Assembly (NCBI GenBank): GCA_964017185.1
Contig: OZ024884.1
Coordinates: 19,810,048 to 19,874,047, forward strand
Length of the DNA: 64,000 bases
Direction: 5' to 3'
From: Rugalucina vietnamica
Lineage: Eukaryota; Mollusca; Bivalvia; Lucinida; Lucinidae
Shown here one piece after another: positions 7,171 to 52,132 of this stretch. The first letter of the stretch is position 1. Each line of letters opens with the position of its first letter. The position numbers were made by a program, and so were the translations under genes. A model generated the notes under the pieces. It searched no databases and was not told where the DNA came from. It saw nothing but the letters and a program-made list of their open reading frames with translations.

Positions 7171-7212
<42 letters not shown>

Positions 7213-8365: not shown

Positions 8366-8385
8366 GTATTATGGCTAAAAACCCA

Positions 8386-20789: not shown

Positions 20790-22110
20790 AATCAACTACG
20801 GCTGACTTAAAAATTGTCTCTTATAACACTCAAGGCCTGCAAGGTATTCAAAAGAGAGTAGATATTTTTGATTATTTGAAAAACAAGGGATGCCATATAT
20901 ATTGCCTACAGGATACACATTTCACAGATGAAGATGTAAGAAATATTATAGATCAATGGGGAGATAGTAATTGTGTATTCAGTAATTACAGATCTAACGC
21001 CAGAGGAGTAGCAATACTATTTGGGAAAACATTAGATTACAAAATCAACAGAAAAATTGTAGATTCTTATGGAAACTATATAATTCTAGACATAAAGATA
21101 AATGATAGAAAAATCACTTTAGTCAATTTATACGGACCAAATAACGATAGTCCTAACTTTTTTAAACAAATCTCAAGCTGCATAGATGATATTGATAATG
21201 AGGAAACTATCATATGTGGAGATTTTAACTGTGTTTTAAAGCCTGAATTGGATTATTACAATTACAAATCTATCAACAACCCTAAAGCAAGAGAAATAGT
21301 TTTGGAATTAATGAACACAAAATACTTAGTTGATCCTTTTAGGGAAAATAACCCAACAAAAAAACAATTTACTTGGAAAAAAAGAAATCCCTGTAAACAA
21401 GCACGCTTAGACTATTTTTTGATTTCAGAAACCTTAATGCAGCATACTAAAAGTGTTGTGATAGATTCGAGCTACAGATCAGATCATAGTATTGTCATAC
21501 TAGCACTCAATTTAACTAATTTTAAACATGGAAAATCATTTTGGAAACATAACAACTCCCTGCTTTTGGATTCAATATATCTTGAGAAAATTAACAAAAA
21601 AATTTTAGACATTAAATCTCAGTATGCATTACCTGTATATGATTACGAACAAATAGATAATATATCAAATGAAGATGTTCAATTCACAATAAATGACCAA
21701 TTATTTCTAGATACACTTTTAATGCAGATTAGAGGAGAATCAATATCATATGCAAGCTTCAAAAACAAACAAAGAAATAATAGAGAAAAACTTTTAATGA
21801 ACCAAATTGATGATTTAGAAAATATTAGAAATGAAAACAATATGGATCAGTTAGAAATTTTGAAGACAGAATTACAGGATATTAGACATGAAAAACTTAA
21901 AGGTTATATGATACGATCAAAAGCTCAACATATAGACCAAGGAGAAAAACCTACAAAGTACTTTTGTGGACTCGAAAAACATAATTATACATCGAAGACA
22001 ATAAGCCAAGTTGAAAAAGAAGATGGGTCAGTAATTACAAATCAAACAGAAATATTACAAGAGATTGAAAATTACTATAAAAAACTGTATGAAAATAAAG
22101 ATGACACACT
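20790..22110 (+). pseudogene. LINE ORF2, 5' part: APE-type endonuclease and linker
   Basis: The frame opens near 20790 (TTADLKIVSYNTQGLQGIQK) with no ATG before 20876. Endonuclease landmarks in order are the YNTQGL start, CLQDTHF, IILDIKI...LVNLYGPN, IICGDFNCVL, KKQFTWKKRNPCKQARLDYF and the terminal SYRSDHSIVIL. A linker with a coiled-coil-like stretch follows and the frame reaches NYYKKLYENKDDT. At 22110 the reading is interrupted by element E1, and the frame continues at 28191. The endonuclease nicks target DNA to prime reverse transcription. All catalytic-type residues (N, E/D, D, H) appear to be present. Confidence 0.85.
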
Positions 22111-22849
22111 TAGTAGAGTTGCTTATGTAACGAAAAATGCTCCCGTGGACTTTTCTTGTTAATCAGGGTTTTTATATACCAAAATGTTCATTAGTATGTG
22201 TAGGTTTCAAAAATGTTTCCTGCCATTTTTTCTATTAACTTTCAAGGTCAAGGTCAAAGGTCAAAGGTCACGGCTAAGGCTTACTGGTGTGACTTACAAT
22301 ATCAATAATTATGACCAAGATAATGTTTTTGAAAAGTACAAAACTAGTGTAATTGATAGTAAACACATTTCGACAATTTTTGATGTCACTTTCAAGTGAC
22401 CTTGAAATCCCAATTCTAAAGGTCAAGGTCATTTATGCCAAATTTGTAAGAAAAATTACAGACATACGGCTTATTTATCGGCGCATTACAAAGTCAGAAG
22501 TATATAGAATGAATCTTTGACATAGATGGTATCTTGAATATTTGTGGGTTTGGTATATTAGTCATTTGCACCACCATGTCACAAACAGTTGCCATAGCAA
22601 CAGCACTTTATGGTAGCCTTAGCGTGAATTTTGAATGATTTTAACAGCGCATTTAAGTGCTTAATCATTGAATTATCTATTAGTTTTGTAGTGGTTTTGA
22701 ATCAACATGGGAATAAATGAAAATGTTTTAATGCATTTATTACTTGCATAAACAATCCCCACAACTTTAATTTTACAGTTAAAGGTCAAGGTCAAATGAT
22801 AATGGTCGAATGATACAACGAACACCCCGTCCATGACCCCCTTTTAAAA

Positions 22850-25640
22850 TAGTGCCGAAACGGGGATATATATACAAGATTAATCATATGTCAGCAACAA
22901 CTTGCCTTAAATCATTGAATGTGGTATCAAATCGAAGCAAAGATAAACCCTTTTCATCTCATGGTAACAATTATCTAATTTGCACATTCATGAATATTAA
23001 TGAAAACAAAAAATCACTGAAAAAAAAAAACACAAGAAAACCTCCGTGGTATTCCTTGAGATAATTTGACCTACCTTGCACCCCAGGATGATTTTAATGG
23101 GTGCAAAATTGTTCATTGGGATCCCAGAAATGCTTTTGTTCATAAAGATAAAAAGGTACAAGTAGGCAAAGATCAGGAAAAGGCGCAATCAGAAAAAGAT
23201 TCCCACTCCAAAAACCGAGGTGGGAAAAAACCAAACTAACAATCAGGTACTTATACCATGAAACATATCGTAAGCCGAATGAGCAGCTATTTTCCCAATA
23301 GGTGGCCACTCAGTTACCTTAACTTAACTAAAAATATGAAAACATACATAAGGCGCCAACAGCACAAAAAATTTTAAACACCAAGACATAAAACAAAAAG
23401 AACCACTACAGAAGTATCGACTTGGAACGATCAGTAACACAAAGTTACTGGCGGGCTTAAACCGGTTTTACAGGTACCTAACCTCACCCTCAGCTTCTGC
23501 AGTGGTTCACAACATTTAGTTAGTTCTTCGGTCCTCGTGGTGAATCTCTAACTAGTCAATGAATCATCAAGAACAAACAAATAAATCATGATAAACATCC
23601 TGATGAATCAAAAACCAGGACTCACAGATTGAGTAAGCTGCCCGACGATGGAGATCCCTGGGCGCCGAATAACCTACTAACTCCGGAGCAAAAGTGCAAA
23701 ATATGTTTGCACTATGAAAAAATGCATGGTTTCCATAGCAACCATTAACATGATTTTTGAGCATGGGCATGTGCATACAAAATTGGTCATATATCCGCTA
23801 TTATTTATCCTAGACCACTGAATCAGATCTCATTTTAAAGCTTAGACATTGTCCTTTTATCCTATGGTACGTAGTAACAGAGTCGAATAGCTGATCTCGT
23901 GTAGAGTTTTTTGGTACCGGTGTCGATCGTTCCAAGATGGCGGCGAGTCAAACAGGTAATTTGTGAGTCGCCTTTTATTTGTAAAAATATTAGTTATGCC
24001 CATCTCAGACACTGTCAGGATAGGAAAAGATCAGATTTTACGATTTTGATATTGCCATTTCGCAGCCTGGCCATTGTAGCAATGAGTGGGTGACTTACAT
24101 GATTTTAAATCCAAGCATAGATCAATAAGGCTGTGGCGACGTTTTGTCTTTTAAACAGCAAATATCGTCACTTTTCTACAAAATTCTATTAGCCAAGACC
24201 CCTAAACACTTTCCCTAGCCCTGGTAGCACACAGAAACTTTCCTGGTAGAAACAAATGAGCTTGAATTTACCAGTCAGGCTACTGTGTAGAAACCATTAA
24301 ATCTTAGCCAGCAATGTGTAGAAACCATTAAATTTTAGCCAGCAACCGTGTAGACACAGGTAATTTTTGACTATTATGTAACTGTGTAGATGCAGATTTT
24401 GGATATTGTGTATACGGTCGGGTATATCTACCTATTTCAATTGCTAGTGGTAATTGCAACTGCGGAATATGGCGAGTACGCAGATTATACACGAGTATAT
24501 CAGATTATATGATTGTAGAACATTGTCACAGCAATCAATTGATACCAATTATAGCTCTCTATGTCTATCAGAAGCCAAGATACAGTTGATTTTCTATGTA
24601 TAACGCCTTATTTTTTCGTAATTTTCCTGTGAATTCGAAAGGTTTGGTTAATATTCATAAAACAAAAAGTCAAATGACTTATATATTGTAGTACTCGATT
24701 ATATAATTTTGCCCTAGCAACCATTTGATGCCATTTTCAGCATGTTAGGGCTTTTGGTTGTAGGTTTACCCGTTTAATTTTCCCAGTTTTTCATTACTAT
24801 TTATGAAGTTTTCATTAAAGTTCGTGAAATTAAAAATCAAATCATTCTTATATGTGACTTAAGTGTCATAGTACACTGCAATAGCATTCAATTGATACTT
24901 CTTTCAGCATACTGGGTATGTAAACAGCTATGGCACAAGTGATTTTGTGCGTATACCCCATATTTTTCCAAGATTTTTTCTCCAATTTTTGTGTGTTTTA
25001 TCAATTTTCATGAATATGCAAATTCAATAATTTGTATAATAGGTATTAAGGTTAAACTGCTAAGTCTATGCTTCACTATCAGACCAATTTAAGTATTGTA
25101 GAGCATGCTATTATTGGTATTTGAATATTTTTTGTAAGTACAACCTGGTCTTTAGAATCACACTAGGGGTGGGTGTGCATCATGCAAATGTGTTCATTGT
25201 TAAGGACAACCTTTATGGCATTAAGGTGGTCCCTCTGACCACACTGGCAGCCATGAAAATTGGTTTCAGGGATATAATTATAGATATTATAACTCACCCC
25301 AAACCTTGCAATGGCTATAGTTTTCCCTCGTTTATCCTCGATTTTCGAATTTTTGTTAATATTCATGAATATGTAAATGATATTGTTTTCATTTTGGGCC
25401 CACAACATCAATAAATATATCATATGATATGGTTCTATAATAAAGTGTCACAATGATAATTTGATGGTTTTTCCCTGAAATTAGTTTATTTATGGATTGT
25501 TAACGATTTTTTCTGTCATTTATTAATGTTTTCATTAAAATTCATGAATATGTAAATTAGATAACTTGCATAACTTACAATAAGTTCAAAAGGGCAATGT
25601 CTAAGTATTAGTATTTACTACCATATAACAATATATTCAT
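22850..25640. repeat. E1 core: ~190-bp family module with opposed arms
   Basis: Forward-type words (TTCATGAATATTAATGAAAA, TCTCATGG...TAACAA, TTTGACCTACCTTGCACC, CATTGGGATCCCAGAAATG) lie at 22850-23130 and 23710-23880. Reverse-type words (TTCATTAAA, TTTACCCGTTTAATTTTCCC, GTTCATTGTTAAGGACAACC) lie at 24450-25640. The module matches E2 (33600-37330) and E3 (40490-43345). Compared with E3, a retroelement fragment has been inserted between about 23130 and 23700. Confidence 0.6.
23130..23690 (-). mobile_element. Retroelement 3' fragment inside E1
   Basis: On the minus strand this carries LVGYSAPRDLHRRAAYSICE, then ESWFLIHQDVYHDLFVC, and a 3' region with CACGAGGACC, AACCACTGCAGAAGC and CCTGTAAAACCGG. 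The same stretch occurs on the plus strand at about 38335-38830. E3 has uninterrupted sequence at the corresponding position, so this is a separate insertion. It is a 5'-truncated piece, as expected from target-primed integration. The family is that of the remnant at 37570-38860. Confidence 0.55.
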
Positions 25641-25959
25641 TGAATTGTAGCCGCATGATAAGACCTATAGTGATCAAAGCGTAATAGATAGAAATCATTT
25701 TTGAAACAATTATTTTGTAGTACCTTAGTCATGCTTGTAAAAAGTCCATCGAATTCGACTAAAATCTTGTCGAAATATTTATTCAAAACCAATATTGTTT
25801 TGTTAATAAAAGTCTTGGTTGCTATGGCAACACAATTAGAATAAAGGTAAAAGTGAGATTTTTATTACAGCCATCAAAATACAAAACATAATTGGTGGCT
25901 GTAAAGTATCTTATCTTGCTCTGGCTATGTAATCACGTTGTAAAATGAGATTCTTGCGT

Positions 25960-28140
25960 ATATTTTCGACATATGTGAGCGAAAAGACCTTGACCTTTCA
26001 AATAAATAGTTCAAGGTCATATGAGAGTGACATAAGAATAACGATCAGGTATGTGCTAAAGATTTTACCTAGTTAAAGGGCAGTTTCAAAATAATGGCCC
26101 CAAAGTGTGACATAGGGTTAAAACACTAAAAGTGTTATTTTGCAGACAAATCTGGCCTTATTTGTACCGTTATACCACTAATTTAAAACTTTGAATAGAA
26201 TCAATAAAATATGAAGAATGGTTCTTAAAAATGATGGCGTTTCTTCGAATTTTTATCTGTAAAGTGGAAAAAAATCTTACACTCCTTACTTTCTAAACAA
26301 ACACTCGAAAATGTAAAGAAGTGACAGAGCTAAACCAATTGTTATGTAAACTGAATTGGGGCCTGAGCTTAGTATAAACAGTAAGAAAATAAATGACAAC
26401 TACAAGTATTAAACATTTGCTGACCAATAATTATGAAATCTTACACTCCTTACGTTTAGACCCCCTGTGGATTTCCGTGCGGTGATATAAAAATCCGAAA
26501 CTACCAGACAGGTGATGCTGTTCTTTATTTTTATCTATATATTCATATGTTTCATATTTTGTATCTCTTCAATATCTATTCCTTAATTTGACGCAGTATG
26601 GTAGCTTTCAAATTTGACTTCATTGAAAAATGTCACACTAAAATCTTAAATACCTTACATCAAATATCTGCATAACTTTTTTATTTATAAAGTTACATAG
26701 TAGGAATTTTGTCAGATCAAGCCTGTCTGAGCGCTTGTTATTTTGGCATATCACTTGATCATTTCCATGCATACAGTACAGTCTTTTTGGGGTCTAAAGC
26801 CTCAAAATGGACCGGGACCATTTTTTTAAACTGTCCTAATATCAAAATGGACCAGGGCCATTTTTTAAAACTGTCCTAATATCAAATATACCCAGAGAAG
26901 CAACCACAAATGATAATATTTTTGTTGGTCCCATAAATTCTAGAACCATGACATTTGACCTTGACCTTAAAATGTGTGCAGAAAAATGGCAGGAACCATT
27001 TCTGAAATCTAAGTGATAAAACAAACATTTTGGTATATTACAATCATGGTTGTCTTAAAGTTCATTAAACACGATAAGCAACTCGAAAACTTAACCATTT
27101 TCCTTAATTATGCACAGCATTCAAAGGTCATACCATGTCCTGTCATTAACCTTCGTTGCTATGGCAACTCATTTGGTGGATCGCTGCAACTTACATATAT
27201 ATATATAGAACCCTACAAGAATACGTACCATATAAAAGGTCTTGAATTCAACCTCCCTCATGCCTGTCATAGCACGCGCATAGTTATTTTGCAAATTTTG
27301 CGTTCTTTTTGGGCAAATTTTTGATAAATGACCTTGACCTTTCAAATGGAGGGGTCAAGGTCATTTGGAAATTGCACTCGGTAATTGCTAAAATGTATTT
27401 ACTTTCGATATTTTCCAGTTTGCAGCAGATTCACATGGAAGATCAGCCATAAATTTAGCGATAGTCATATGCCCTATGTATTTAATAGCCGTGACCTTTG
27501 ACCTCTGACCTTGACCTTGAAAGTCAACCGAAAAAATGGCAGGACACATTTTTGAAATCTAAAAAATAAAAGAAACACTTTGGTATATTACAATCATGAT
27601 TGTCTTAAAATTCATTGAACAAAATAAGCAACTCGAAAACTTAACCATTTTCCTTAAATATGTACAGCACTCAAAGGTCATACCATGTCCTGTCATTAAC
27701 CTTCGTTGCTATGGCAACTCATTTGGTGGATCGCTGCAACTTACATATATATCGAACCCTACAAGAATACCTACCATATTAAAGGTCTTGAATTCAACCT
27801 CCCTCATGCCTATTGTAGCACGCGCGCAGTTATTTTGCGTATTTTGCGTTCTTTTGGGGCAAATTTTGGGTAAATGACCTTGACCTTTCAAATGGATGGG
27901 TCAAGGTCATTTGGAAATTGCACTCGCCAATTGCTAAAATGTATTTACTTTCGATATTTTCCAGTTTGCAGCAGATTCACATGGAAGATCGGTCATAAAT
28001 TAAGATATAGTCATATGCCCTATATATTTAACAGCTGTGACCTTTGACCTTTGACCTTGACCTTGAAAGTCAACAGAAAAAATGGCAGGAAACATTTTTG
28101 AAATCTACTCATCAAACCGAACATTTTGGTATATAGAAAC
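25960..28140. repeat. E1 right arm expanded as ~549-bp tandem units
   Basis: The word TTGGTATATTACAATCATG starts at about 27030 and 27580 and reappears as TTGGTATATAG at 28129, just inside the terminal repeat. GACCTTGACCTTTCAAAT followed by GGTCAAGGTCAT occurs at about 25988, 27330 and 27878. GTTGCTATGGCAAC recurs at about 25825, 27165 and 27712. The terminal arm has thus been duplicated in tandem two to three times. A separate 43-bp duplication (AAAATGGACC...CTGTCCTAATATC) is at about 26803-26890. Confidence 0.75.
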
Positions 28141-28190
28141 CCTGATTAACAAAAAGTGGCCACGGGATTACATAAGCAACTCTACTAACT

Positions 28191-30648
28191 TGAAAATGTT
28201 GATTTAGAAGAGTATATGAAGGATACAAATATGCCAAAATTACCAAACCAAGAAAGTAAAAAATTAGAGGGCGTCTTAACATACAAGGAAATTTCGGAAG
28301 TATTACTTAAAATGAAGCCAGATAAAAGTCCAGGAATCACAGGCTTCACTGCAGAATTCTTTAAAGTTTTCTGGAAGCAACTAGGATATTTCGTACTACG
28401 GTCTATTAATCACAGCTATAGAATGGGAGAATTATCTATCACCCAAAGACAAGGTATTATCACATGCATTCCCAAAGAAAATAAGCCAAAACATCTATTG
28501 AAAAATTGGAGACCTCTAACACTCCTAGATACAGTATATAAAATTGCTTCTGGTACTATAGCTAATAGACTCAAATCAGTAATAAATAATTTAAGAAATA
28601 AAGACCAAATAGGATTCATCAAAGGAAGGTACATAGGGGAAAACACTAGACTAATTTATGACCTAATGAGCTTTACGGAGGAAAATCATGTTCCTGGCCT
28701 ACTACTCTTGATTGATTTTGAAAAAGCCTTTGACTCCCTCTCATGGCAATTTATACATAAAGCCTTAAAATATCTTAATTTTGGTCCTTCTTTAATTAGA
28801 TGGGTGGACATCTTTTATAAGAATATCACTTCTGCAGTGTCTCAATGTGGCTTTTTAACATCCTTTTTTAACATTGGCAGAGGTTGCAGGCAAGGTGATC
28901 CACTGTCACCATATCTTTTCATTATATGTGCAGAATTTTTGTCAACTGTAATAAGGAAAAACAAAAAAATTAAAGGTATTTTTTTAAATGGTGAAGAATT
29001 TAAAGTATCTCAGTTTGCAGATGATACATCAATTTTCCTAGATGGATTCTCCCAGTCATTGAATTGTACCCTAGAAGAACTAGATAAATTTGCCAAAATA
29101 TCAGGCCTAAAAATAAACTTTGATAAAACACAACTTATATGGATAGGCTCCAAAAAACACAGTACACAGTCAATTAAAACAAGGTGAAAACTTTCATGGG
29201 GTGGACATAAATTCAGAATACTTGGGATAAACTTCAATGTGGACTTAGAAAAAATGGTAAAAGAAAACTATGAAGCAAAGATGCAAAATTTAGAAAAGGT
29301 AGTAAAACAATGGGAAAAAAGATCATTAACACCTCTAGGTAAAATAACAGTAATCAAAACATTTATTATATCTGCCTTTAACCAATTATTCATAACGCTT
29401 CCAAACCCAGATAAAAATACAATTGATTACATAAACAGAGTATTATTCAGCGTCCTTTGGAAAAACAAACCTAGTAAAATAAAGCAAACAACAATTATTA
29501 AACAATATGAAGATGGTGGGTTAAAAATGGTCAATATCATGGCTTTTATGGAAGCTCTAAAATTAACATGGATCAGAAGACTTTTAACAGAGGATTGTAA
29601 GTGGCAGATTTTTATTAAACAATATCTAGATATAGATAAGTTAACAGGGTGTAATATAAAATATTTGGAAAAGGTTATCTCAGAATTACCTAATTATTTT
29701 TGGAAAGATGTATTACAATTCTTGATAAAGATCAATAAAAAATCTGTTTATACAGATGCAAGCATCTTAAAAAGTCCAATTTATTACCATCATCAAATCA
29801 AGGTTGGTGGCTCACATATATATTTCAAACTATGGTTTGATAAAGGTATAAATATATTAATGATCTGGTTAATGAAAATGGAGAGTTTTACCATTACAAT
29901 GAATTAAGTATGAACACAGGAATAAACACAAACTTTTTACAATATAATGGATTGATCAATGCCATCAAGCAATTCCTAAAAAACAAGAACATAAAAATTA
30001 CCCACAAAGAGCCATCTCCTTTTATTCCAACCAATGTCATGCCAGTAATGAAAAATAGTAAAGGATCAAAAGATATGTATAGTATTTTGAATAGTAATGA
30101 TAACGAAACACCAACAGGACAAACCACTTGGAATAAAATATATAACCTTACTAAAGAACAATAGAAACAAATATACATATTCCCATTCAAAACTACAACA
30201 TATCCCGCCTTAAAATGGTTTCAAATTAATATAAATCACAACATATTAGTCACAAATAAATTATTGTATCAAATGAAATTAAATGATGATGCACTGTGCA
30301 CCTTCTGTCAGACAACAAATGAATCTATTATTCACCTTTTTTGGAAATGTGAAAAAATACAAGAGTTTATCAGAAATGTAAAAAGTTGGTTAAATTCATA
30401 TCACATTCAGTGTGATATAAGTGAAAAATACTTTCTATTTGGTTTGCAAGAGGAGCACAGATTCACAAATGTCTTAAATTTTGTCATACTTTATGCAAAA
30501 TACTATATTTATTTAGCTAGATGTCAGAAGCAAAATCTAATTATGAATGTCTTTAAACAGAAACTAAAAGTGATGTATAAAATTCATAAAGAAATAGCTT
30601 TCTTTCATCATTCCATAAAGAATGGAGCCACTTTACACCATTAATAGA
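28191..30648 (+). pseudogene. LINE ORF2, 3' part: reverse transcriptase and C-terminal zinc motif
   Basis: It is in frame with 22110 once E1 and one ACT are removed. Reverse-transcriptase blocks in order are MKPDKSPGITGFTAEFFK, LLKNWRPLTLLDTVYKI, NKDQIGFIKGRYIGENTR, LLLIDFEKAFDSLSWQFI, GRGCRQGDPLSPYLFIICAE, QFADDTSIFL and SGLKINFDKTQLIWIGS. The catalytic FADD is intact. A TGA interrupts at 29185-29187 where CGA is likely (TR-stop-KLSWGGHKFRILGINF). The frame shifts near 29855, and a TAG stands at 30162-30164 where TGG is likely. The end carries the CxxC...HLFWKC motif (LCTFCQTTNESIIHLFWKCE), usual after L1-like reverse transcriptases. The copy is dead but young-looking. Confidence 0.85.
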
Positions 30649-31100
30649 TGACATAGTACAATATTAGGATTTTCAACAATTTCATATATGAATAAGAAAT
30701 ATATACTGTGCACCCCCACCCCCCCCCCCCCCGCCCCACCCTGACATTTATGGGCTGTCAGATAAAACATAAAATATCTGTTACCTGTTTAATTTAGAGA
30801 TTTAGTTTTGATAAATCATAACCCTATATTAATAAATTTTTGAACAAAAGTATGAAAGGCTGTATAAAAGGTGCACTTTGATACACCCATTGATATATAT
30901 GTATGTATATATATTTACATGTTGTATGATGACAGCCTCCAGACTGTCAGAGTGAAAGTAAGTGCACATGTCTGAATGAAGAGAAAAAGGAGAATGAAAG
31001 AGTTGGAAACCCTTTCTGAGCAGCCTGGTACAGAAAGGTGTATGTAACAGGCAAACAGAAAAAAAAATTTTTTTTTTGGATGTCATGACATCCGATTTTC
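30649..31100. other. LINE 3' flank, probable UTR
   Basis: It contains a C-homopolymer (about 30712-30735), the inverse of the 20728 motif pair, an A9/T10 run and a 16-bp palindrome GGATGTCATGACATCC (31078-31093). The LINE end is not certain; the A/T run near 31060 is a plausible end. Confidence 0.35.
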
Positions 31101-31261
31101 GGGCCAAAGTCCCATAAAATGGAGTCAACGTCTCAATATGACAATAGCTGCTGACTAGGCTGTTAAGCATCAACTCAAAATCAAACAAAACAACTGCATC
31201 AGGCAATGTCTGGAACACCAATGGTACTTTTATTGAAGCAGTGCTCATGACCAAGGACTGA

Positions 31262-31425
31262 ACAATTTTTGTTCCGTTTAACGTCCCTTTCCATATTATT
31301 TCAGCTCATATGAGACGAGCCTACCGGTAGGTGGGACGAAAACGGGAGAACCCCGAGAAAAAAAAACACCTGGCACACCCGCAAGCAGAACTTGGCTTGT
31401 CTCATATGTGCCCCGAACCCAGACA
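31262..31425 (-). mobile_element. tRNA-derived SINE, partial copy
   Basis: On the minus strand it shares GCTTGCGGGTGTGCCAG, CTCGGGGTTCTCCCGTTTTC and CTCATATGAGCTGAAATA with the full-length SINE at 44331, and ends with AAAGGGACGTTAAACGGAAC. A B-box-like TGGGTTCGGGGC is present, but the A-box half is not recognisable, so it is 5'-truncated or diverged. The shared boundaries independently confirm the family. Confidence 0.7.
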
Positions 31426-31580
31426 AAATGAACTAGCATGCGCAGAGTTGTGCTTTTGTATGGCCGGCGAGTCATTTCATAATCCGGAAATCGGAAAACA
31501 ATCTTTAGGTGACGATTATTATATCTTATTTCTATTTATTTCCTTAGGTTTTACCGCCTAAGATTTTAAGCGAAAAATGT

Positions 31581-33370
31581 GTTACATACGTTACCATTAA
31601 ATCGCCCGTCACCCGCATTGATATTTGCTTACTAATATTGGCAAGCTTTGTGAAAGGTAACTTAAGAAATAGTGACCGAAGGTGTTGATAATAACATTTC
31701 ATAACACTGGATACTAACAATGGTGTAAAACATGTTGTGCCTTTTTGTTGTTTGGGTGTGCGCGCTTTAAGTTCACGGACAACCGGATTACACTCTTATA
31801 TATTTGCTGTATGAATATTTGCTATATGATTTCTAAATTAGTGCTAAATCATAATTACATACAGCGATGAGCATTTTATCAGCATTAAAATCATTAAAAC
31901 TGATTTTTGATATTTAATAATCATGTGTAACATACGTTACCATATTTACCAATCAAAAGTACACATTTCTGGCAAAGTAGTGAGCATTCAACTTAAAGAA
32001 GGCATATATGTTACTGATATACAACAAGATGATTGTATTCTTTTTCTTCTTTTCTTCAAACTTGTCTGTTCATAGTTGACTTTGAACACTTTATTCTTTC
32101 ATAATCTGAAGTGAGTTACTGTGGACTATATGCAATAACTTTCGACTAAGGAATGACATGGTGATTAGTTTTTTCAGGTTTGTAAAAGAAAAGGAATAAG
32201 TGTCATTTGGATCAGTGTATCTAAAATATAAATGTGCAAAGAAAAGTATATATTAAAATAGCTTACTGTTCTGTAATTAAACTCTGAACTTTCTGTTTTG
32301 AAAATGTAACATACGTAACACCATCGATGCATATATGTGATTAAAAGTATAAACACATTTGCCAGTAACATTCTATCATCAGATGACATTAACATATTTA
32401 GGTTTGGAATTTATTTTAGAGATTCATGGTGCATTTTTCAAACTTAGAGTATATTTCTGTTTTGAATGGGTAACATACGACGTGCGTAACGGCTTCTGGA
32501 GGGCAAATGCACCATACCATTGGGCGACAACGTACATAGAAAATCTTTATATTGATCAACGAAGCCACCCGTAGTGTATTAAAAGTGAAATTCAAAAAAA
32601 GAAGTATATTAAAATGGCTTACTATTCTGTAATTAATATTTACACAGGCTGTTTTGAGAATGTAACATACGTAACACCATCATTGCATGAAAATGATTAA
32701 ATATATCAATATATGTGCCCGTAACATTCTTATATCAGATGATATTAATACATTTAGGTTTGGAATTTAGATGAGAGATTCATAGTGTATTTTACAAACT
32801 TAGAGCACATTTCTGGTTTGAATGGGTAACATACGTAACGGCTTCTGGAGGACAAATGCACCATATCACAGGGCGACAACGTGCCTAGAAGCTCTTTATA
32901 TTGAGCAAAGAAGCCACTCATAGTATCAAACCTAGTATGTAGAGGGTGTTGTGCGAAACGAAAAATTTCCCTACCCACCGTCTCCTCTAAAAGTTTTGAA
33001 CCACTGCAATAGATGAGGGTGAGGTTATAGTACGGTACATGAAACTGAAACTTGGCGATAAAATGCACCCATCAGGGGAAAGGACAAACTTGGTCTCAAA
33101 TGAAAGCTTATTAACCCTGCTATTGATTTCCGGTTGTCGTAGCTTTCTTAAAGTGTAGCGTCATATTAGAAAAAGGGGAGATAACTCCCTACTATATCAA
33201 AGCAAGTTTCGACAGACAGTTGTTTTCGTTAAAAAAGTAATAGAAGTTTTCATGGGACAACGTAAAGCTCATAGTTATATAACACAAACATGTATTTCAT
33301 GGCGATTGGTTGCTGTTTAGGTTCCTTGAATGTCAAGACTATGTTATGACATAATGTTACGTAACATACT
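31581..33370. repeat. Cluster of seven GTAACATACGTTAC palindromic motifs
   Basis: GTAACATACGTTAC or a close variant (GTAACATACGTAAC, GTTACATACGTTAC) occurs at 31581, 31927, 32306, 32470 (expanded), 32662, 32826 and 33357. Part of the cluster is explained by a ~354-bp tandem duplication (32246-32600 and 32601-32950, with matching AACACCATC(G/A)ATGCAT and GGCTTCTGGAGG words). The outer copies at 31581, 31927 and 33357 lie outside that duplication. No ORF is associated. Confidence 0.75.
32930..33027 (+). mobile_element. Retroelement 3' segment, left of E2
   Basis: TTTTGAACCACTGCAATAG and ATGAGGGTGAGGTTA match the 3' region of the retroelement at about 38510-38540 (GTGAACCACTGCAG; ATGAGGGTGATGT). 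The sequence stops at the E2 boundary and resumes at 37569 with AGGCGCCTGTAAAA, as it does at 38540. E2 therefore inserted into this segment. Confidence 0.6.
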
Positions 33371-33579
33371 TATAAAATCGTTGTAAATGAATATTTTCAA
33401 TTTAATTTGCACGATTAATGTAAACACTGTTGAAACGAATTTTCTTTGGTCTTATAACCAATTTCACAAGCTTTTCAGCAATGCCAGCTACGTTTCTGTA
33501 CTGTTTTTATTAACTGAGTTACACTCCTTTAAAGTATCGCATCCCCGTTCAAAAACTTGCACATTTAAGTGAATTGATA

Positions 33580-36500
33580 ATGGGGGTACACAAAGAAAAT
33601 GGATCATATCTCAGCTGTCTCTTATTCTAGACCACAGAACTTTGTATCATTTTACAGCGGAGACAAATCCCTGATATCGCATGAATAAAAAATCAAATTT
33701 GCATATTCATGAATTTTAATTAAAACTTTAAAATGACAGGAAAAAACACACATAAAAACAATAAATGACCTAATTTCATCTCTAAACGATCATTGTGACA
33801 CATTTTTATTGCGCCAGTAATAACACTTGATAAAATTGTTGATGTCATATACCTATATGAAAAATATATTATTTGTGTTCTCATGAATATTAATGAAAAT
33901 GACAAAAAAAAATCAGGAAAAGCGAGGGGAAAATGTTTTACCCTATAAGACTTTGGGGTGGGCAATAGGATCTACCTTGTACCCTTAGACAATTTTAATG
34001 GCGGCCAGTTTTGTCAGAAGACCACCAAAATACCAAACAAATATTCTCTTCAACACTAAACACATTTCTATGATGTCAGTATCATAGTTCCCCACCCGCC
34101 CCTAATGCGATTGTAAAGAATACTCAAATACTCTTATCCCAGCAACAGCATGCTCTAGAGTATGATAGTTTGTCCAATTGTAAAATACGGACTTAGAACT
34201 TTCACATATATACATATTAATGTTCAAATCATTGATTTTACATATTCATGAAATCAATAAAAGATAACAAGAATCGGTACAATAGGGGGGGGGGGGATAG
34301 TTATAAAATCACTTGACTCTGAGCTGTTTATAAACATATAACACTGAAAGTGGTATCAAATGAATGTTATGACAACTTGCGGTAACTTTCAAGTCTGATA
34401 TAAGGCTCATCTGATTGTCACTTTCATGAATAATAATGAAAACTAACAATTGGAGAGAAAACGAAATGAAAAAGAAATTAAACGGGAATATATACAAAAT
34501 AACTTGCATCTCAGCAACCAAAACCCTAAAGTGCTGAAATTGGTATCAAACGATTGCTTATCAAAATTATATCACTCTATTCTACAATAAATAAGTCATT
34601 TGATTTTTGTATTTAATTAAATCTGTAAAAATTGGAGAAAAACGCAGAAACAAATGAAGGGGTATACCTGAATTACCACACCTATCTTGGCTAATGATTT
34701 ACTGAATAGCTGAAATTGGAATAAAATGATTGCTAGGACACTGTACAATAACCAAATTCTAAAAAATATAAATCAGGTGACTTACGCATTGTTCAATTGA
34801 TAATAAAACTTAAACGTGTTGAGAAAATCACTGAAAAAAATGAAGGGGTATACCAACAAAATCGCTTATATCTCAGCTAGTAACAATCATAGATTTTTGT
34901 AAATGGTACTAAATGATTGTTATGATATTGTGTTATACCATGTAATAAATAGAGGATATTTGCTTTTTTGAGGTGAATACTTCAAATATATTGCATCGAG
35001 TGAGTTGAAAAAAAAGCAAATTTTCTTTTTATTTTATACAATACAGGGGCATTTTCCAATTCACAAGGCAGGCGGTGAAAATGCAAAAACCAAAAAATTT
35101 TGAAAACACAAATAATTTTGGTACCACATTGTTCCTTACGTTCTAACTATGAAAATGAATACACACACTTTATGTTTTCGTTCATAAATAATGGAAGTAT
35201 AGGCCTTTGAATTTCTGAAGTGAGACTCATTTAATGACGTCAAGTAAATGGTAACGTCAGAAGTAATCCAAAATCTACAATGAAGATATAGGCTGATACC
35301 AGTCACTAGTGACTTTTGATATCAGTGAGATTTGATATCAGTGAAATTTCATATCAATGAAAATACCAATTTTATCAAATTTTGATATACATTGGTTTTC
35401 ACTGTAAAGTATAAAATAAGATATGTTGATCAGCTGAAATTCTTGTTGTTCGTATAGTAATAAGAATTTTAGATAAAAGGAGAAAAATTAGAGAAAAACG
35501 AAGGGGTTATACCAATAAAATCGCTTATATCTCACTTACCAAAAGCCTTAGAGTGCTGCTAATGCTAACAAATAATTGCAAGGGCAATGTGCTATAATGA
35601 TAAAAAAAAAAGGTATTTATGCTACTTGACTTTCTTAATGTTCAAATATTAACGAAAACTTTAAATATTAGAGACAAATCACAGAAAAATGAAGGGGTAT
35701 GCCAACGCAATCTCAAATATCTCAGCTACCAAAGGTCATAGAGTGTTGACAATGGTACCAAATAATTGCTAGTAGATCAATGTACTATATCCAGGTAATA
35801 AGATACGTAAATCGTCTGAATTTTTGTCGTTGGAACATTAATGAGAATATTAGATATTAAAGAAAAATCACCAAAAAATAAAAGGACTATACCAAAAAAT
35901 TGCTTATATCTCAGCTAGCAAATGTAAATGGTACCAAAGGATTGCTAAGGCAAGGAACTTTTGTCCTGCAGTCTGATATATTAACCAGTTTAGATAATGT
36001 TTTGAATGTTACGTAAAACTTCAAAAAAATTTAAACATAGCAGAAAAAGTTATGGTTGTGTTCCAACAAAATCATTTGTACATTTGTTTTTAACTAATTG
36101 CTATTGTGTATCTGGCCATACAGCAATGGCTTGTAGTCGTAGAGATTGTTTGATGCAATGTTGAATAAATTATGGCTATTTGCAACTGAGATACAATTGA
36201 CCTTGCTGATATTCGTACCTCTTCAATTTTCCGTGATTTTCACCTATTTTTGAGGTTCACAAAACAAATATTCATATTATTCACTGATTAATAATGTTAA
36301 AAATGGGTATAGTACATTATCGTAGCTATCATTTAATACAAAGTCTAATTCTCTAGGGCTATTACTAGCTGAGATACTTGTAGCTTTATAGGTATACCAC
36401 CTTATTTTTTCTTCAATGTTTCTCCGATTTCTCAAGATTTTATTCAAAGTCATGAAACGAAAGTCAAATGGCATATAGTTCATAGTGCAGGTGTATTTTG

Positions 36501-37330
36501 ACATCAATTGCAGCACATCAGACCTTCTGGTTGCTGAGATACAGATCAGTTTGTATATTTACCCATTTAATTTTCTATTTCATTCGAATCAATATCTATT
36601 TTTCATTAATATTCATGAAATTGAAAATCAGACGAGGCTTATACATTACAATAGCATGTATTTGACAACTTTCAGCCTAGGTAAAAGTGACAGGTCCCTT
36701 TATTTAGAAAGTACCAATCTTAGTAATTTTGTCAATTGTTAATAAAGAAAGGGCAAATTGGAGAAAGAGTAATTCAGTAGGCACGCACTTTTCTTAATAA
36801 TCATATTATGTGTTGAAAATCATGGAAAACTTGTAATTTGATGCCATTCCAACATTTCGCTAACAGGGTCATATTGTTGCATTTACGTTGTCCCGCTGAA
36901 CAATTTGGTATACCTGAGGAATTGAGTCTTCCGTCAGACCACCCATCATTAGTATTCATTTTTAAATTGACCATTCAAATCAGCACATTAGCTAACGGTC
37001 AAAGACGGTTAGACAACAAGGGGGTTAGACAAACAAACCAACACGTGTTTTTTATCGGTAAATATAGGTGCAAAAACACAATGTTTGTCTGAGGAAATAG
37101 GGATGGGCGTGGTTATACCTTGCTGGCGGAGGAGTCAATTGATCTAGAGATTTTGGTCTGTAATTAGTTTACTTTTTTATTTTCAATGATTTTGCTATCA
37201 TTTTTAATGATTTTATCAATAATCATGAATATGCAAATAATATATTTTGCACAACTTACCATTAGGTGAAAGAGCTATGTCTAAGCTTTAGAACGAGACC
37301 AAGTTTAGTCATCTAGGTTAAGTAACGGTA
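33580..37330. repeat. E2 core: ~190-bp tandem units in opposed arms
   Basis: Left-arm units contain AATCGCTTATATCTCAGCTA, ATGGTA(C/T)(C/A)AA(A)TGATTGCTA, CATGAATATTAATGAAAAC and ATGAAGGGGTATACCAA. The ATCTCAGCT word falls at about 34308, 34498, 34673, 34861, 35519, 35709 and 35898, with local spacing of 175-190 bp. From about 36150 the words appear inverted (TAGCTGAGATAC, TATACCACCTTATTTTTTC, GGTTGCTGAGATACA). The turn lies near 36130. The many short ORFs here are repeat by-products. Confidence 0.7.
36920..37140 (+). mobile_element. 221-bp MITE, copy 1 (in E2)
   Basis: The ends are AATTGAGTCTTCCGTCA and TGGCGGAGGAGTCAATT. Internal words shared with copy 2 at 41919 include ATTGACCATTCAAATCAGCA, CATTAGCTAACGGTCAA, AGACAAACAAACCAACACGT and AAAAACACAATGTTTGTCT. 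Both copies have the same length and orientation. AATT at each end could be part of the terminal repeat or a fixed target. Confidence 0.75.
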
Positions 37331-37568
37331 GAAATATTGACGATATAGCATTATGTACTCTTCAGAATTTTTGCATTTTACAACATGTTAGTACAGAGTT
37401 ATCTCCCCATTTTACAATATGACGCTACACTTTCCGGACACTACGACAACCGGCAAATGAAAGAAGAGATGATAAGCTTTAATTTGAGACCAATTTCAAC
37501 CTTTCCATACAAAGGTGCATTTTTCGTTCGAATTAAGCGTCGTACAGGATTGATCATGTACCGCACTA

Positions 37569-38860
37569 TTAGGCGCCTGTAAAATCGATATAAGCCCCCC
37601 CCCCAGTAATTTCATATTAGTGATCGTTCCAAGGCGATACTTCTGCTGTGGTTCCATTTGTTTTATGTTTAGGAGTCAAATTGGAAAAAGAGCTGTTCAC
37701 TCGGCTTACGATATGTTTTCTAATTATACGTACCTAATTATCAATTACGTTTTCCCACCTCGGATTTTGGAGTGGGAATTTCTTTCTGATTGCTCCTTTT
37801 CCTGATCACTGCTTCTTTGTAGAACCACAGTTGAATAAAGCCAACACTACGGATACCGAAGCCCCTTTTTGGATTCACATCTTTCTTTTGCAAATGGATT
37901 TGTTTTTTCTAAAATTTATGATAAAGGCGATGACTTTGATTTTGATATAGAAAATGTTGGATGGTGACGTTTCTCGCCGTGTTTCGTATGGTGTATACAT
38001 TTCGCAACTTATTAGGTTTGCTAGAGTCTGCAGTCATGAAGCGGACTTCAACGCGGGAAATAAATGTTTAACAGCCAAACTTCTCCTGCAGGGCTATCGG
38101 TATCATAAACTTAGAAAACATTTTCTAAATTTTATCGCAGACCACTATGAGTTGATTTCCATATTTAATGTTGGGCTAAAGGCGCTTTAACGTGTGGGTC
38201 TTTCGGAAACAGAATTTTATGGTGACTTGGTATACAAATTTAAGAAACTTATAGGAAGGAATGATTTTTGTTTTCATGTCAGAAAAATCATAACACGTTA
38301 TAGACGTATGGGTTATAACGTATGGTTTTCAAAAAGTTATTCGGCTCCCAGGGATCTTCATCGTCGGGCAGCTTACTAAATATGTTTCAGAGTCCTCGTT
38401 TTTGATTCATCAGGGTGGTTATCATGATTTATTCGTTCGTTGACTAGTTAGAGATTCGCCACGAGGACCAAACAACTTCATTTTTGTACATGTAAATATG
38501 AATTTTGTGAACCACTGCAGAATATGAGGGTGATGTAAGGCGCCTGTAAAACCGGTTTAAGCTCCCCCCGCCCCCAGTAATTTTATATTATTGATCGTTC
38601 CAAGGCGATACTTCTGTTGTTGTTCTTATTGCTTTGTGTTTTGGAGTCGAATTTTTGTGCTATTTGGGCATTGTGTGCGTTTTCATATTTTAGTTAAGTT
38701 CGTGTAGCTACGGCTTACGGTATGTTTTCTTGGTATAAGTACCTAAATGTCATTTTGGTTTTTCCCACCCTCGGTTTGTGGAGTGGGAATTTCTTTCTGA
38801 TTGCGCCATTCCCTTATCATTGCCTATTTTTACATTTGAACCTTTTTGTAAAGCATTGTT
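37569..38860 (+). mobile_element. Retroelement remnant: post-reverse-transcriptase region between two copies of its 3' segment
   Basis: Coding pieces read LDGDVSRRVSYGVYISQLIR, FARVCSHEADFNAGNK, LTAKLLLQGYRYHKLRKHF and LSETEFYGDLVYKFKKLIGR, preceded by a trace of SKIYDKGDDFDFDI. I recall this string as the region after the reverse transcriptase in a retroelement common in bivalve and coral genomes, possibly Penelope-like. The polymerase domain itself is absent. A ~250-bp segment (GATCGTTCCAAGGCGATACT; GGAGTGGGAATTTCTTTCTG) stands both before (37600-37820) and after (38590-38830) the coding part, like the duplicated ends of Penelope-type insertions. It is broken in several places and looks old. 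Confidence 0.55.
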
Positions 38861-39574
38861 ATGTTGTTTATAAGTTTTAAAGATATTCAATGATAGTATT
38901 CTTAACAAACGCGACCATGGCATGTTAGACACAAGCCTGTCTGCTTTTAAATTATGCAAATATTACCGTGAATATGCTTTTTTTATATTAGCCAACATGC
39001 CTTTCGCTTTACCATTTTTCCATTATGACATGAACACTTACTGTGCTAACTACAGCGACTGCCACAATAGGAATCGTGCGTATTAAGACGAGGTCTTTTA
39101 CGCATTTCCCTCGAAACATGTACACATATCAAAACATGTGTCGTAAATAGAAAATTACCCAGCATGTTCCCAGATCATACCGCAACACTTTGCTTTTGGG
39201 TGGGACTAGATAGCGAAAAGAGGCCCTTTTTGCGAAAATGTGCGAAAAGAGGTATTTGAATGCCGAAAGTCCTTTATGATGTATATTATGTAATAAAAAT
39301 TAGTTATTTCAGATAGTGCGATAGTAGCAGCAATCCATAATACAAGTAGAAGAATTTCTAAAATATTAAATGTCGACAAAAAGGTGCGATGGCTTAGTGA
39401 CAGAGCATTTCTAATTACGAGGTGTGGATTATCACAGTAGGTGTTGGCTGGCACACGCATATATTGCCTTATGACACCTTGGTTAATATACGGTGACAAA
39501 AAGTCAACATTGGCGCCTACTGAAACCTAATGGTGAAATGCAACCATATCTCATCAAAAATGCACATCAATCAC
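38861..39574. other. No gene seen
   Basis: AT-rich, with a short repeated word GCGAAAAGAGG at 39214-39252. A minus ORF at 39206-39499 has no recognisable domain and is probably fortuitous. Confidence 0.4.
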
Positions 39575-39905
39575 AGGGTGGCCGCACGATAATCGAGCGG
39601 ACGCCGTGGTCTGTCCGTATGATAACCGCACGATTTCCATAAATTTTAATAACCTTGCAATAACCGTACGGATGCAGTACGATCACCCTAAAGGTCTAGG
39701 ATTATCTCTATTTTTTGTCCCAACATTATCATAAAAAACGTGCGGTGACCGCATGATCATCGCATGGTTTCCGTACGGTGCCCGTACGATGCTACCTATT
39801 ACGTGTCTACGGGCTACGGTCTTACGATTTTTAAAAAATTGTAAATGTGCAAACTATTACAAAATCGTAGAGGCTACGGAGATCGTAGGAAGCCGTAGAA
39901 TCGTA
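39575..39905. repeat. CG-word-rich repeat split by E3 (left part)
   Basis: CCGCACGAT, CCGTACG, CGTGCGGT and GCCCGTACGATG recur densely until E3 begins. Similar words (GAGACCGCACGA, CATACGATCATCGCA) continue at 44015-44150 after E3. Together they probably form one older element with CG-rich internal repeats, like the one at 59199. Its outer ends were not identified. Confidence 0.4.
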
Positions 39906-40489
39906 TAGTCGGCCATGCTTAATTTCTAGGGCCTCTAGAAAAAAGTTTTGATGGCATTTTTTGTTAATGCTCGGCATCCATGCTAGAAATGTTCTTTTGG
40001 GTATGACAAAGTGTCCCAGGGCCGATGCCAGGTCTGAATCTTCGAATTAAGGTCATGGTAAGGTCAAAGGTCAACTAGGTGCATTTCGGTTCTAAAACCT
40101 CTGTTGAATAATCTAATTTGTCATAAATGTTATTTTTATCAGTGTCTTGCTATGCTTAATATGCCCAAAACCAGACATGCAGTTATAAGAAATAATAAAC
40201 AAACAATTTGAGGAATATACTTCCTATCATGGGATAGATACAAGTTCAGCTTTTGCCAAAATCATTTCAGAGTAGCTTGCACAATGTTTGTAGTACATAT
40301 TTATAGTCAGGAATTTCAGATCCATTTTTCTTTACAAATTTAAATGCTATTTATAAGTCACAATGATCTTTCCTAGTAATAACAACACCTAGGCACACCG
40401 ACGTATATAGAACGCTACGAAGGCTAGATTTAAAACAATTTGTATTGGAGACGTATATAAAACGTTTCAATTCATTGCAAATTAAAATG

Positions 40490-43345
40490 ACCCGCGGGGC
40501 TAATTTGACCTAACTTGCACCCCCAGAACAATTTTGCATGGGTGTCAAATCGTCCATTGGGATCCCTGAAATGCAAAGAATTTTGTCGTACACGATAAAC
40601 CCAATTGCATTATGAAAAATGCATTATTTCCATGGCAACTGTTGATGTGATTCATGAGCATGAGGGTGTACCTACAAAATTGATCACAGTTCTGCTGTTA
40701 CTAGTCCTAGACCTCTGAATCTGGCCTTGGGTCAACACTGAGGCATAGGCCTTTCATTGCGTAAGTACTGCAAATTAACTAACTTGCATGTTCATGAATT
40801 TTAATGAAAACATTAAAAGTGATTTAAAATGTTTATTTATCCATGAATAAACCAATTTTAATCCTAAACTATCATTATCACACTTTGTTACTGCACCAGT
40901 TATACAGTATAATGACAAATTTATTGATGTCTTGGGCATATATGAAAATAATCTCATTTGCATATTCATGAATATTGATTAAAATGTTGAACACCTGGGG
41001 AAAGCAAGGGAAAATCTATTGCCATTTAAGGATTTTAGGTAGGTTATTTAATATCTTTCTTGCACTTTAGGACAATTCTCATGCTGCCAGTTTGGCCCGA
41101 GGACCACCTAAATGCCATATATTGTTGTCCTCACAATGAGCACATTTGCATGATATGAAATTACATAGTTTCCACGCCCACTCCTATAACGTGATTCTAA
41201 AGTATGGGATGAACTTACAAACAAACCCATATTCCACCAAGAATATGCTCAAAGACACTTTGATTGGTCTGATAGTAATGCATTGACATAGCAATTTGAA
41301 ATGTAAAATTAATATTCAAATAATTGAACTTACTTATTCATGAATATTAAAGAAGAAAATAAGAAAAGATATTGAGTACACATACAAAATCACTTGTTCA
41401 AGGGCTCTGAGTAAACTTAGGATACTGAAAGAGGTATCAAACGAATGCTATGACAATGTAAATAATCACCCTGAAGTCTGATAAAAGAGTTATCTGATAT
41501 TCAATCTCATGAATATTAATGAAAACCTTATGAGAGAAAAAAAAATAAACAAGTAAATCTACAAAATGACATGTATCTCGGCAGCCAAAAGCGCTAAGGT
41601 CTTAAAAGTGGTATTAAATGGTTGCGTAGGTAATATTAAAGCATTTAATCTAAAATATGTAAGTCATTAGATTTTTTTTTCATGACCATTAATAAAATCG
41701 TTAGAAATCGAAGTTTAGATGCGGAAGAGTTAAGAAGGAAACCATGTAAAACACATGTATCTTGATTACTGATAGACATACAGGGTTGTTTTTGGAATCA
41801 AATTATTACTAAGACTGTAATTGGAATCAAATGATTGCAAGGACAATGTTCTCTAATCATGTAATCAAATATATAAACCATAAGATATTTTTGTATGGAT
41901 ATGAATGAGGACTTTATGAATTGAGTCCTCCGTCAAACCACCCATCATTAATATTCATTTTATATTGACCATTCAAATCAGCACATTAGCTAACGGTCAA
42001 TGACAGTTAGACAACACGTGGATTAGACAAACAAACCAACACGTGCTTTTTACAGGTAAATGTATGTGCAAAAACACAATGTTTGTCTAAGGAAATAGGG
42101 GTGGGCGTGGCTATACCTTACTGGCGGAGGAGTCAATTAGAAAACAATTATCACCAAAAATGAAGTGGGAATACCAACAAAATTACTTATATCTCGGCTA
42201 CAAATGCCATGAGAGCCCTGAAAATGGTATCAGTATAATGCTATAACAATGTAGCATTGCCATATAGTCTTATAGATAAACCATATTATATTGATTGTTG
42301 TAAATACTATGTAAAATATGAACAAAATAATGAAAATTACACAAAATTGAAGATTGTGCTCCAAGAAAATTACTTCTATCATCTTGGTTGCCAACAAGTA
42401 TGCTTGGCATATCTGAACCTATATCGATAAAGTATTGTCCTATCAATTATATGATGCCACATTAAGCTTTCTAGGGCTATTGGTAGTCGAGACCCGAGAT
42501 ATATGCGATCTTAATGGTATAGCCCTTCATAATTCGGTGATTTTTTCTCTAATTAAAGCATATTTTTTAATATCAATACCACAAAAATATCAAAATATTT
42601 ATATATCTGATTACAAAATTATAGAACATTGTCCTAGCAATCAGCTGATACCAATTTCAGCTCTCTATGTCTATCAGTAGCTAAGCTACATTTGCTTTTA
42701 CAGGTATACCACATTAATTCGTCCTGATTGTACCCCAATTTCAGAAGATATTATTAATGTTCATGAAAATAAAATCTAATGGCTTATATGTTTAATATAT
42801 TTTAGTATAGTCAAGATGGTATAATATAACCCTAGCAATCATTTGATGCCATTTTCAGCACTTTAGTGCTTTTGGTTGCCGAGATACACGGCAATTTGTA
42901 GGTTAACCCGTTTAATGTTTTCTTTTTTTCTCTCCTATTCCTAAAGTTTTCATTAATATTCATGAGATTGAAGATCAGATTATTCTTATACTAGACACAT
43001 GGGTGATATTTCTTTTCCATAGCATTCATTCTATATCACTTTCAACATTCTAGGTTTATATACAGCCTTGTGGTAAGTGATTTTTGCACGTATATCCCCT
43101 TTTTTATGATTTTCTCAAATTTCTTTTGTGTTGTATCATTAATATTCATGAATTAGCAGGCTCAATGATTTGAATATTAGGTATGCATTTTTAAAAGTAT
43201 TACTGTCAGGCCAATCATAGTAGTTTAGAGCATACTATTGGTTTGATATGAGTATTTTTGTAAGTACAACCTATTCGTTTGAACCATAGGTGGGCGTGGA
43301 CACTATGTTATTTTACACCATGTTCATTGTTAAGGACAATATGGA
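40490..43345. repeat. E3 core: ~190-bp family module in opposed arms
   Basis: The left part has TTTGACCTAACTTGCACCCC, CATTGGGATCCCTGAAATG, CATATTCATGAATATTGATT and TGTATCTCGGCAGCCAAAAG in forward orientation. From about 42440 the words are inverted, for example CTATCAGTAGCTAAGCTACA, AACCCGTTTAATGTTTTC and CATGTTCATTGTTAAGGACA. The turn is near 42420. E2 turns at a corresponding point, which supports a common ancestor. Confidence 0.7.
41919..42138 (+). mobile_element. 221-bp-family MITE, copy 2 (in E3)
   Basis: The ends are AATTGAGTCCTCCGTCA and TGGCGGAGGAGTCAATT; it is about 90% or more similar by eye to 36920-37140. It lies in the left arm of E3, whereas copy 1 is in the right arm of E2, so these are probably two insertions rather than one inherited one. 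Confidence 0.75.
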
Positions 43346-44151
43346 CAGTTATTAGAATGTTCATGACACAAGCAGGAATTATAAAATAATACCAGAAGTG
43401 CATTGAAAAAGTCATAGCAACTTTACAGGATCAGGTTTATAATCAAGTTTCGTTGTAACATTTTATTTTGTATTGTCACAATGCGATTTAACCTGGGGTG
43501 CTTTATTAGCACAAACACGGCATGTTTACTACTTTAAACAAAGGTAAATTACATCTTTTGCCCTCTGCATAACGCTATGTCTATTTACAACTGTTACACT
43601 CATAATTAAATTAGCAAATTAAAATAAAGAAAAGAAACGGTTGTATTTGTAAGCATTTTCAGCATATTTGCACCATTTTGACCTCTGACCTTCCTGTGTA
43701 TCGAACCCATGTGTCAAATTAATTCTTGTGGCAAGCCTCTGGGTCATTCCATATAAATTGGCAGCTGTTGTTTTATTTATTTTGAACATTTTCGTGACAA
43801 AAAAGACCATATTATGAAATTAAGTATTATTTTTCTTACAAAATGCACTTAGTTGACCTTTGACCTTACTGTGACCTTAAAACGCAAATTCACGCTTGGC
43901 ATCCGGCCCTATGTTGTTTGTAGTATCCCAAGGAACAATTCTAGCCTTGATGCCGAGCATTAACAAAAAATGCCATCATGAATTATCGTAGAAATTAAGC
44001 ATGGCCGACTAGTAGGGATTCGTATGGTCTGACACCCTGCGGAGACCGCACGAAAATGCAACAATTGGCATCATACGATCATCGCAAGCTAATCGTAGGC
44101 CTAATATATCCTAGGCATTAGCAACAAAAATATTGAAAAATGGGCATACGA

Positions 44152-51342: not shown

Positions 51343-52008
<666 letters not shown>

Positions 52009-52132
52009 AGCTGGTTAGTCGAAGAATACTGAGATTCATTCTGAGTCTGTCTTTTTATACCATCGCTGGAGTTGGTTTTGTTCTAGTTCTTCTCAGATTT
52101 GGTTTCTTTGTAATCCTCTGACGTTTAGCTGT

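Follow-up and report, generated by a model that had tools for sequence, protein, structure and literature searches.

The 64,000-nucleotide window of the bivalve Rugalucina vietnamica analysed here (the whole stretch, C16:19810048-19874047 of a 1.09-Gb assembly in 47 contigs) contains three large elements, E1, E2 and E3, which we interpret as non-autonomous cut-and-paste transposons belonging to families that share an internal core. According to this interpretation, to which we assign a probability of roughly 0.75, E1 would be moved in trans by a relative of DUF6589 proteins encoded on contig C3, and the repeat arrays of the core are possible binding sites.

E1, E2 and E3 are complete inverted-repeat elements

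E1, E2 and E3 are complete inverted-repeat DNA elements, each flanked by an exact 3-bp duplication (Table 1). All three start with TAGT and finish with ACTA. The terminal 20 bp of the left and right ends match at 20/20 positions in E1, 14/20 in E2 and 20/20 in E3, and BLAST aligned inverted repeats of ~340 bp at 74% identity, 135 bp at 79% and ~180 bp at 78%, respectively. The extents and the ACT, TTA and GTA duplications proposed in the initial annotation hold exactly, and its description of non-autonomous terminal inverted repeat (TIR) elements with variable 3-bp targets and a common core of opposed arms was confirmed from genome copies. It had also grouped E1-E3 as one family with a common TAGT terminus. 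The common core stands, and so does TAGT within these three elements; nevertheless, they represent three families with their own ends, and only TAG is common across families. An Rfam scan of positions 21900-45000 yielded no match at gathering scores.

One pair of ends is little proof of a mobile element, because a TAG..CTA scan of 20 loci at a loose terminal threshold of 14/20 recovered 8 pairs, as compared with 2-7 in five shuffles; the proof lies in multiple copies. This narrow margin is what chance inverted repeats in AT-rich DNA would predict, an explanation that is refuted by the multiple copies with the same ends and by the empty site in a long interspersed nuclear element (LINE), both described below.

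Table 1. Features of the elements and their surroundings. Positions refer to the window unless a locus (L) or contig (C) is named.
Feature	Location	Strand	Remarks
E1, non-autonomous element	22111..28187, 6077 bp	.	ends TAGTAGAGTTGC..., duplication ACT
E1 target duplication ACT	left 22108..22110; right 28188..28190	.	
E2, non-autonomous element	33028..37568	.	ends TAGTRCGGTACATGA, duplication TTA
E3, non-autonomous element	39906..44011	.	ends TAGTCGGCCATGCTTAATTT, duplication GTA
LINE endonuclease part	20792..22110	+	split by E1
LINE reverse transcriptase part	28189..29184	+	3' of E1
E1 left-arm module	22915..23056	+	single one remaining
E1 right arm	24495..25609	-	six modules
E2 left arm	33635..36081	+	nine modules
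E2 right arm	36175..37310	-	four modules
E3 left arm	40716..42394	+	eight modules
E3 right arm	42400..43179	-	five modules
Later insertion inside E1	23153..23698	.	E1 query part 1043-1588
Tandem duplication of E1 right terminal zone	26949..28147	.	copies 89% identical
222-bp repeat inside E2	36919..37140	.	also in E3, elsewhere in the element
222-bp repeat inside E3	41918..42138	.	91% identical to the E2 copy
E2, further complete copy	L001 2955-7693		duplication AGA
E2, further complete copy	L002 2004-8141		duplication TTC
E2, further complete copy	L003 2229-8082		duplication ATA
L007 element pair, one family	L007 464-4350 and 4839-8962		opposite orientation, >99% identical, 488 bp apart
Candidate E1 partner	C3:53305321-53313153, 7833 bp		exact E1 ends on both sides

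Genome copies and the empty site of E1

A 300-bp join of the two E1 flanks carrying a single ACT matched four LINE copies from end to end at 98-100% identity. The same join matched the window itself in two separate parts, 1-151 and 148-300, in which the fourth overlapping base is the T that opens E1. E1 is therefore an insertion with target duplication, because the uninterrupted LINE copies carry one ACT. Inverted repeats at reproducible ends, target duplications that are mostly exactly 3 bp long and, for E1, an empty site are as expected of class II (cut-and-paste) TIR transposons.

Using the first 240 bp of E1 as the query, 40 of 469 candidates were scored, all of them at 98-100% identity. 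In the 30 E1 loci cut out of the genome, the bases outside the terminus vary from copy to copy, and 29 of the loci are E1-like for at least 750 bp. The exception, L042, was considered as an E1-ended copy with a different interior and judged to be truncated. Among the matches listed in a search with the whole of E1, protein-less copies are up to 98% identical and consist of query parts 1-1042, 1589-3551 and 3552-6078, in this order and on one strand. The E1 20-mer end, allowing up to two mismatches, occurs genome-wide at 93+99 sites (192), compared with 1+2 for the reversed control. The 100 E1-end sites listed include 41 plus/minus neighbour pairs, of which 37 are no more than 10 kb apart; 27 of the 37 span 5.5-6.1 kb.

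For E3, 40 of 337 candidates were scored, with 96-100% identity. Its exact end is present at 35+32 sites genome-wide (67; control 0+0), and 58 of the 67 form convergent pairs within 15 kb, i.e., 29 pairs where 0.015 are expected; 17 of the 29 are 3.8-4.1 kb long. The initial annotation had allowed that genome copies might end at other coordinates, an outcome that did not occur, since E1 and E3 copies end alike. Judged by copy identity, E1 and E3 appear to be young. Two longer E3-ended pairs, C9:51699337-51711373 (12.0 kb) and C14:46122180-46133775 (11.6 kb), are either candidates for a coding partner of E3 or nested insertions. The three further E2 copies were found among the 20 loci that carry the core motif, and a third occurrence of the 222-bp repeat of E2 and E3 is located at L013 9143-9366.

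All 19 listed E1 copies with sequence on both sides of the 23153-23698 insertion point are contiguous there, with a 3-base overlap. Pieces of the inserted repeat were found at three other listed places, and it matches repeats found in L010 on either side of frames that weakly match GIY-YIG. Because its L010 counterparts flank these GIY-YIG-like frames, the insertion is probably a fragment of a Penelope-like element. The presumed Penelope-like element itself (L010 2306-7233, L018 and L016) comprises a frame with the weak GIY-YIG match and a 640-codon frame with no Pfam match, with direct repeats on either side. Pieces of this type interrupt several core-bearing elements, E1 among them.

At least six families with TAG ends share the core

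The 20 loci (L001-L020, 10 kb each) were chosen by the core motif and are thus a biased sample, and we placed element ends at the TAG closest to where similarity stops. The core is common to at least six families: those of E1, E2 and E3 and, under other ends, at least three more (L006, L004/L009 and L019/L020). The ends TAGTCTTCTAGC/TAGGCTAATGGC occur in L005, L006, L008, L010, L015 and L016, TAGCCCGAGAGC in L004 and L009, and TAGTTAAGACAGG in L020; both elements in L007 have TAGYGGAGCTGC ends, and an element nested in L005 has TAGYAGGGCGGATATG ends. All 17 tabulated elements start with TAG and finish with CTA, so that the terminus common to the families is 5'-TAG rather than TAGT. An exact 3-bp duplication flanks 14 of the 17 (ACT, TTA, GTA, AGA, TTC, ATA, GTT, ATG twice, TAC, ATT, TAT, CAT and AGT), or 15 of 18 when L015 (560-5650, TAG) is added. 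Outside this count are L013 and L019, with one end found, L017, with one L007-type end, L018, with modules and no ends found, and L011, L012 and L014, with other ends and weak module matches. The interval L007 464-8962 was considered as one 8.5-kb element and rejected, since it consists of two oppositely oriented elements, one flanked by CAT and the other by AGT.

The core consists of opposed arrays of a ~185-bp module

A profile of the ~185-bp module gave 260 matches in the 20 loci and the window. In all 16 elements examined, the modules face inwards, plus and then minus, with exactly one switch; the patterns range from '+-' in both L007 elements, which carry one partial module beside each end, to '++++++++++++++---' in L006. 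The single turn previously described for the arms of E2 and E3 is thus borne out and extends to E1, which retains a single left-arm module. The profile found no match in the window outside E1-E3, and the possibility raised earlier that cores occur mostly outside such inverted repeats was not realised. It also found no module in the element nested in L005. As structure only, these long inverted repeats of tandem units are Foldback-like.

Better conserved stretches of the core include AGAGAGCTGAAATTGGTATCA and ATATTAATGAAA. The core motif TTCATGAATATTAATGAAAA, with up to two mismatches, is present at 7718+7826 sites in the genome, against 22+37 for the reversed control. Core alignments longer than 1 kb were obtained between families among E1, E2, E3, L004/L009 and L020, at 65-79% identity. 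The L006 family aligned over shorter stretches, mostly 0.3-0.8 kb, and at the threshold used neither L007 nor the nested L005 element gave a core alignment with another family, an inserted repeat aside. For the terminal 150 bp, only 4 of the 28 family pairs scored above all 30 shuffles, the clearest being L007 against the nested L005 element, in agreement with the earlier statement that the ends differ strongly. On sequence comparison, then, the cores of different families are homologous and collinear, whereas their ends are mostly unlike. Because the cores align and the ends mostly do not, the core is older than the present ends, or slower to change, in six families. In a protein-less transposon, the terminal repeats are usually kept and the interior decays. 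Here, a non-coding interior can be recognised from family to family and the ends cannot, so that a role of the interior can be put to the test.

An alternative is a foldback-type passenger: the core would be an old repeat array that unrelated transposons captured several times and that has no role in transposition. Such capture would account for a core common to families with mostly unlike ends, for the TAG-ended element in L005 that carries no module, and for the weak module matches in L011, L012 and L014, whose elements have other, GGACGTGCATTA ends. Nevertheless, the strong cores with readable ends are TAG-ended, most with an exact 3-bp duplication, and inward arms with one switch in 16/16 elements, both arms aligning, are not expected from repeated capture. 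We therefore consider the passenger explanation improbable.

A candidate coding partner of E1

No transposase frame was seen among the longest frames of the elements read, E1-E3 included, as the initial annotation had noted for these three. For each of the 20 loci, the six longest frames of at least 120 codons were considered; inside tabulated elements, these were only the Penelope-like ones nested in L010 and a 122-codon one in the nested L005 element. The 12 longest frames of the window (at least 158 codons) all lie outside E1-E3. The Pfam scan was limited to eight chosen frames.

Seven E1-ended pairs measure 7-40 kb, and six of them were sampled over 350 bp each. Four proved E1-like at the sample and have therefore grown by insertions; L055 matches another repeat. 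The 7833-bp copy on C3 has exact E1 ends on both sides, and its two samples, L054 and L057, match neither E1 nor the other loci. L057 is open throughout in one frame, and a genome search places it in a stop-free frame of 1651 codons. This copy may be a longer relative of the kind that the initial annotation had proposed to look for, with a DDE-type transposase. Relatives of the frame lie at seven other places with 60-61% identity (C1:99415326, C2:36570011, C5:57487103, C8:22616618, C10:29963471, C17:8187160 and C3:49369377); six of these are frames of 1662-1664 codons with equal scores. Weak matches to Pfam PF20231 (DUF6589) coincide with five of the six (C1, C2, C5, C10 and C17) in position, strand and frame length. 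DUF6589, which we took to be perhaps a transposon domain, had been tried before L057 was read. The genome search found no second close copy of the L057 fragment, Pfam gave no match for the 83-residue partner fragment, and no relatives of the fragment were confirmed in viral contigs. DUF6589 is not named in the open-licence literature searched.

The simplest reading of this frame is that the C3 element is likely the autonomous partner of E1. Protein-less copies and an intact candidate partner with the same ends would then provide a system for testing DUF6589 as a transposase. The 7.8-kb copy could also be a deleted E1 holding a nested, unrelated gene-bearing element, in which case the partner of E1 would be another. 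That four of the six sampled large pairs are E1-like, and that L055 matches another repeat, is consistent with nesting. However, neither C3 sample matches E1, even though one was taken ~1.1 kb inside the end, a distance at which L051, L053 and L056 are E1-like, and 7.8 kb is too short for a whole 5.5-kb E1 plus a frame of ~5 kb. We regard such nesting as possible and, on balance, unlikely.

Comparison with known transposons

PIF/Harbinger elements generate a TWA-type 3-bp duplication, whereas the exact duplications found here are varied (e.g., ACT, GTA, AGA and TTC). The families may instead be non-autonomous AcademX transposons, a described kind, which we consider a serious contender at somewhat less than even odds. 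AcademX elements encode an XPG-type nuclease. A genome search with Pfam XPG_I (PF00867) at E<=10 returned 20 matches; the E1-partner locus and its seven relatives were not among them, although a divergent domain could escape such a search. On the other hand, the duplications of 3 or 4 bp given for AcademX in the excerpt available (PMC10045372) agree with the 3 bp found here, and Academ is described as amplified and abundant in bivalve genomes in an excerpt of PMC10294476. We leave the superfamily open because AcademX, compared by description only, fits by duplication length, but the partner loci gave no XPG_I match.

EnSpm/CACTA elements likewise have 3-bp duplications; their 5'-CAC..GTG-3' termini differ from the 5'-TAG..CTA-3' found in 17/17 elements here, and the ends of the CMCT clade are mostly 5'-CA..TG-3' in the part of PMC12730594 consulted. 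Galileo, of the P superfamily in Drosophila, and Foldback resemble the present elements in their long, internally repetitive inverted repeats and many protein-less copies, whereas the duplications of Galileo are 7 bp long instead of 3 bp (PMC3573991, in excerpt). Additionally, the repeat arms described here lie inside the element, away from the terminal sequences, and the candidate partner is DUF6589-like, not P-type (no THAP search was made). Several transposase binding sites lie within the tandem repeats of Galileo according to an excerpt of PMC3688188; chimeric copies have been reported, and new subfamilies are proposed to arise when long repeats recombine (PMC3573991, in excerpt). The Cg_HINE non-autonomous Helentrons of the Pacific oyster also comprise families with different flanks and related central tandem repeats, as far as the excerpt of PMC7492417 describes them; the present elements differ in having inverted ends, 3-bp duplications and two opposed arrays.

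The combination of features described here was not found in the open-licence literature searched (sequences, bivalve 3-bp elements, foldback or subterminal repeats, and Academ), and four of the sequences have no description in that literature.

Proposed mode of transposition

We propose that E1 is likely moved in trans by the 1651-codon product of the 7.8-kb C3 element, as frame and end comparisons suggest, and that the other families may have their own proteins of the DUF6589 kind. The protein would cut at the TAG ends and join them to target DNA with a 3-bp stagger, and protein-less copies that keep the ends could multiply in trans. The arrays may have grown in tandem from a subterminal repeat, inwards from each end; the L007 elements, with one partial unit per end, look like the short state and fit such growth. 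By analogy with Galileo, the modules could act as putative internal binding sites that help the transposase to bring the two ends together, and a role for the arrays is plausible because they outlived the ends in six families. The ends would have changed along with the transposases while the core was kept, and recombination between long repeats, also by analogy with Galileo, could explain exchanged ends.

Several observations weigh against this proposal. Three of the 17 elements (L005, L009 and L010) have no exact duplication, and the weak module matches in L011, L012 and L014 fall in elements with different ends. Not every TAG-ended element has the array, since the nested L005 element has related ends without a module and L007 has no array; an array is thus not needed everywhere. 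The five PF20231 matches are near the cut-off only, 26.7-27.5 bits against 27, and the C3 frame itself is absent from the DUF6589 list at E<=0.001, being linked to its relatives by ~61% identity over 82 residues. The C3 copy was read over 600 inner bases only (L054 and L057), with the target duplication outside these, and it may be an E1 copy with a deletion that holds a nested element of the DUF6589 type. No partner emerged for a second family: none of the 67 exact E3 ends lies within 20 kb of the eight frames. Ends of the type shared by L007 and the nested L005 element number 345+314 (659; control 0+0), and among the 100 listed, covering C1 and part of C2, none is near the C1 and C2 frames.

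Overall, the families are real, their anatomy is unusual, and one of them has a good candidate partner. We regard them as a variant of a known transposon type, with a modest probability that they form a separate superfamily. It is doubtful that DUF6589 proteins are the transposases of their own superfamily, defined by TAG..CTA ends, 3-bp duplications of free sequence and inward modules that work in transposition in at least six families and were kept while the ends were replaced.

Other features of the window

A Polinton-like element with AGTAGTAATGGACGGCACTATA ends occupies positions 50152-53779 of the window and 261-4613 of L017, with the 6-bp duplications ATCAGC and TACGGC; one of its two frames encodes an acidic protein carrying a C2H2-type finger, and the product of the other has no Pfam match. 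In L017, it sits inside an L007-type element. Dense arrays of direct repeats cover positions 1-8400 and 9400-15100 of the window, and a frame with immunoglobulin-type domains at 48243-49163 on the minus strand is probably a host gene.

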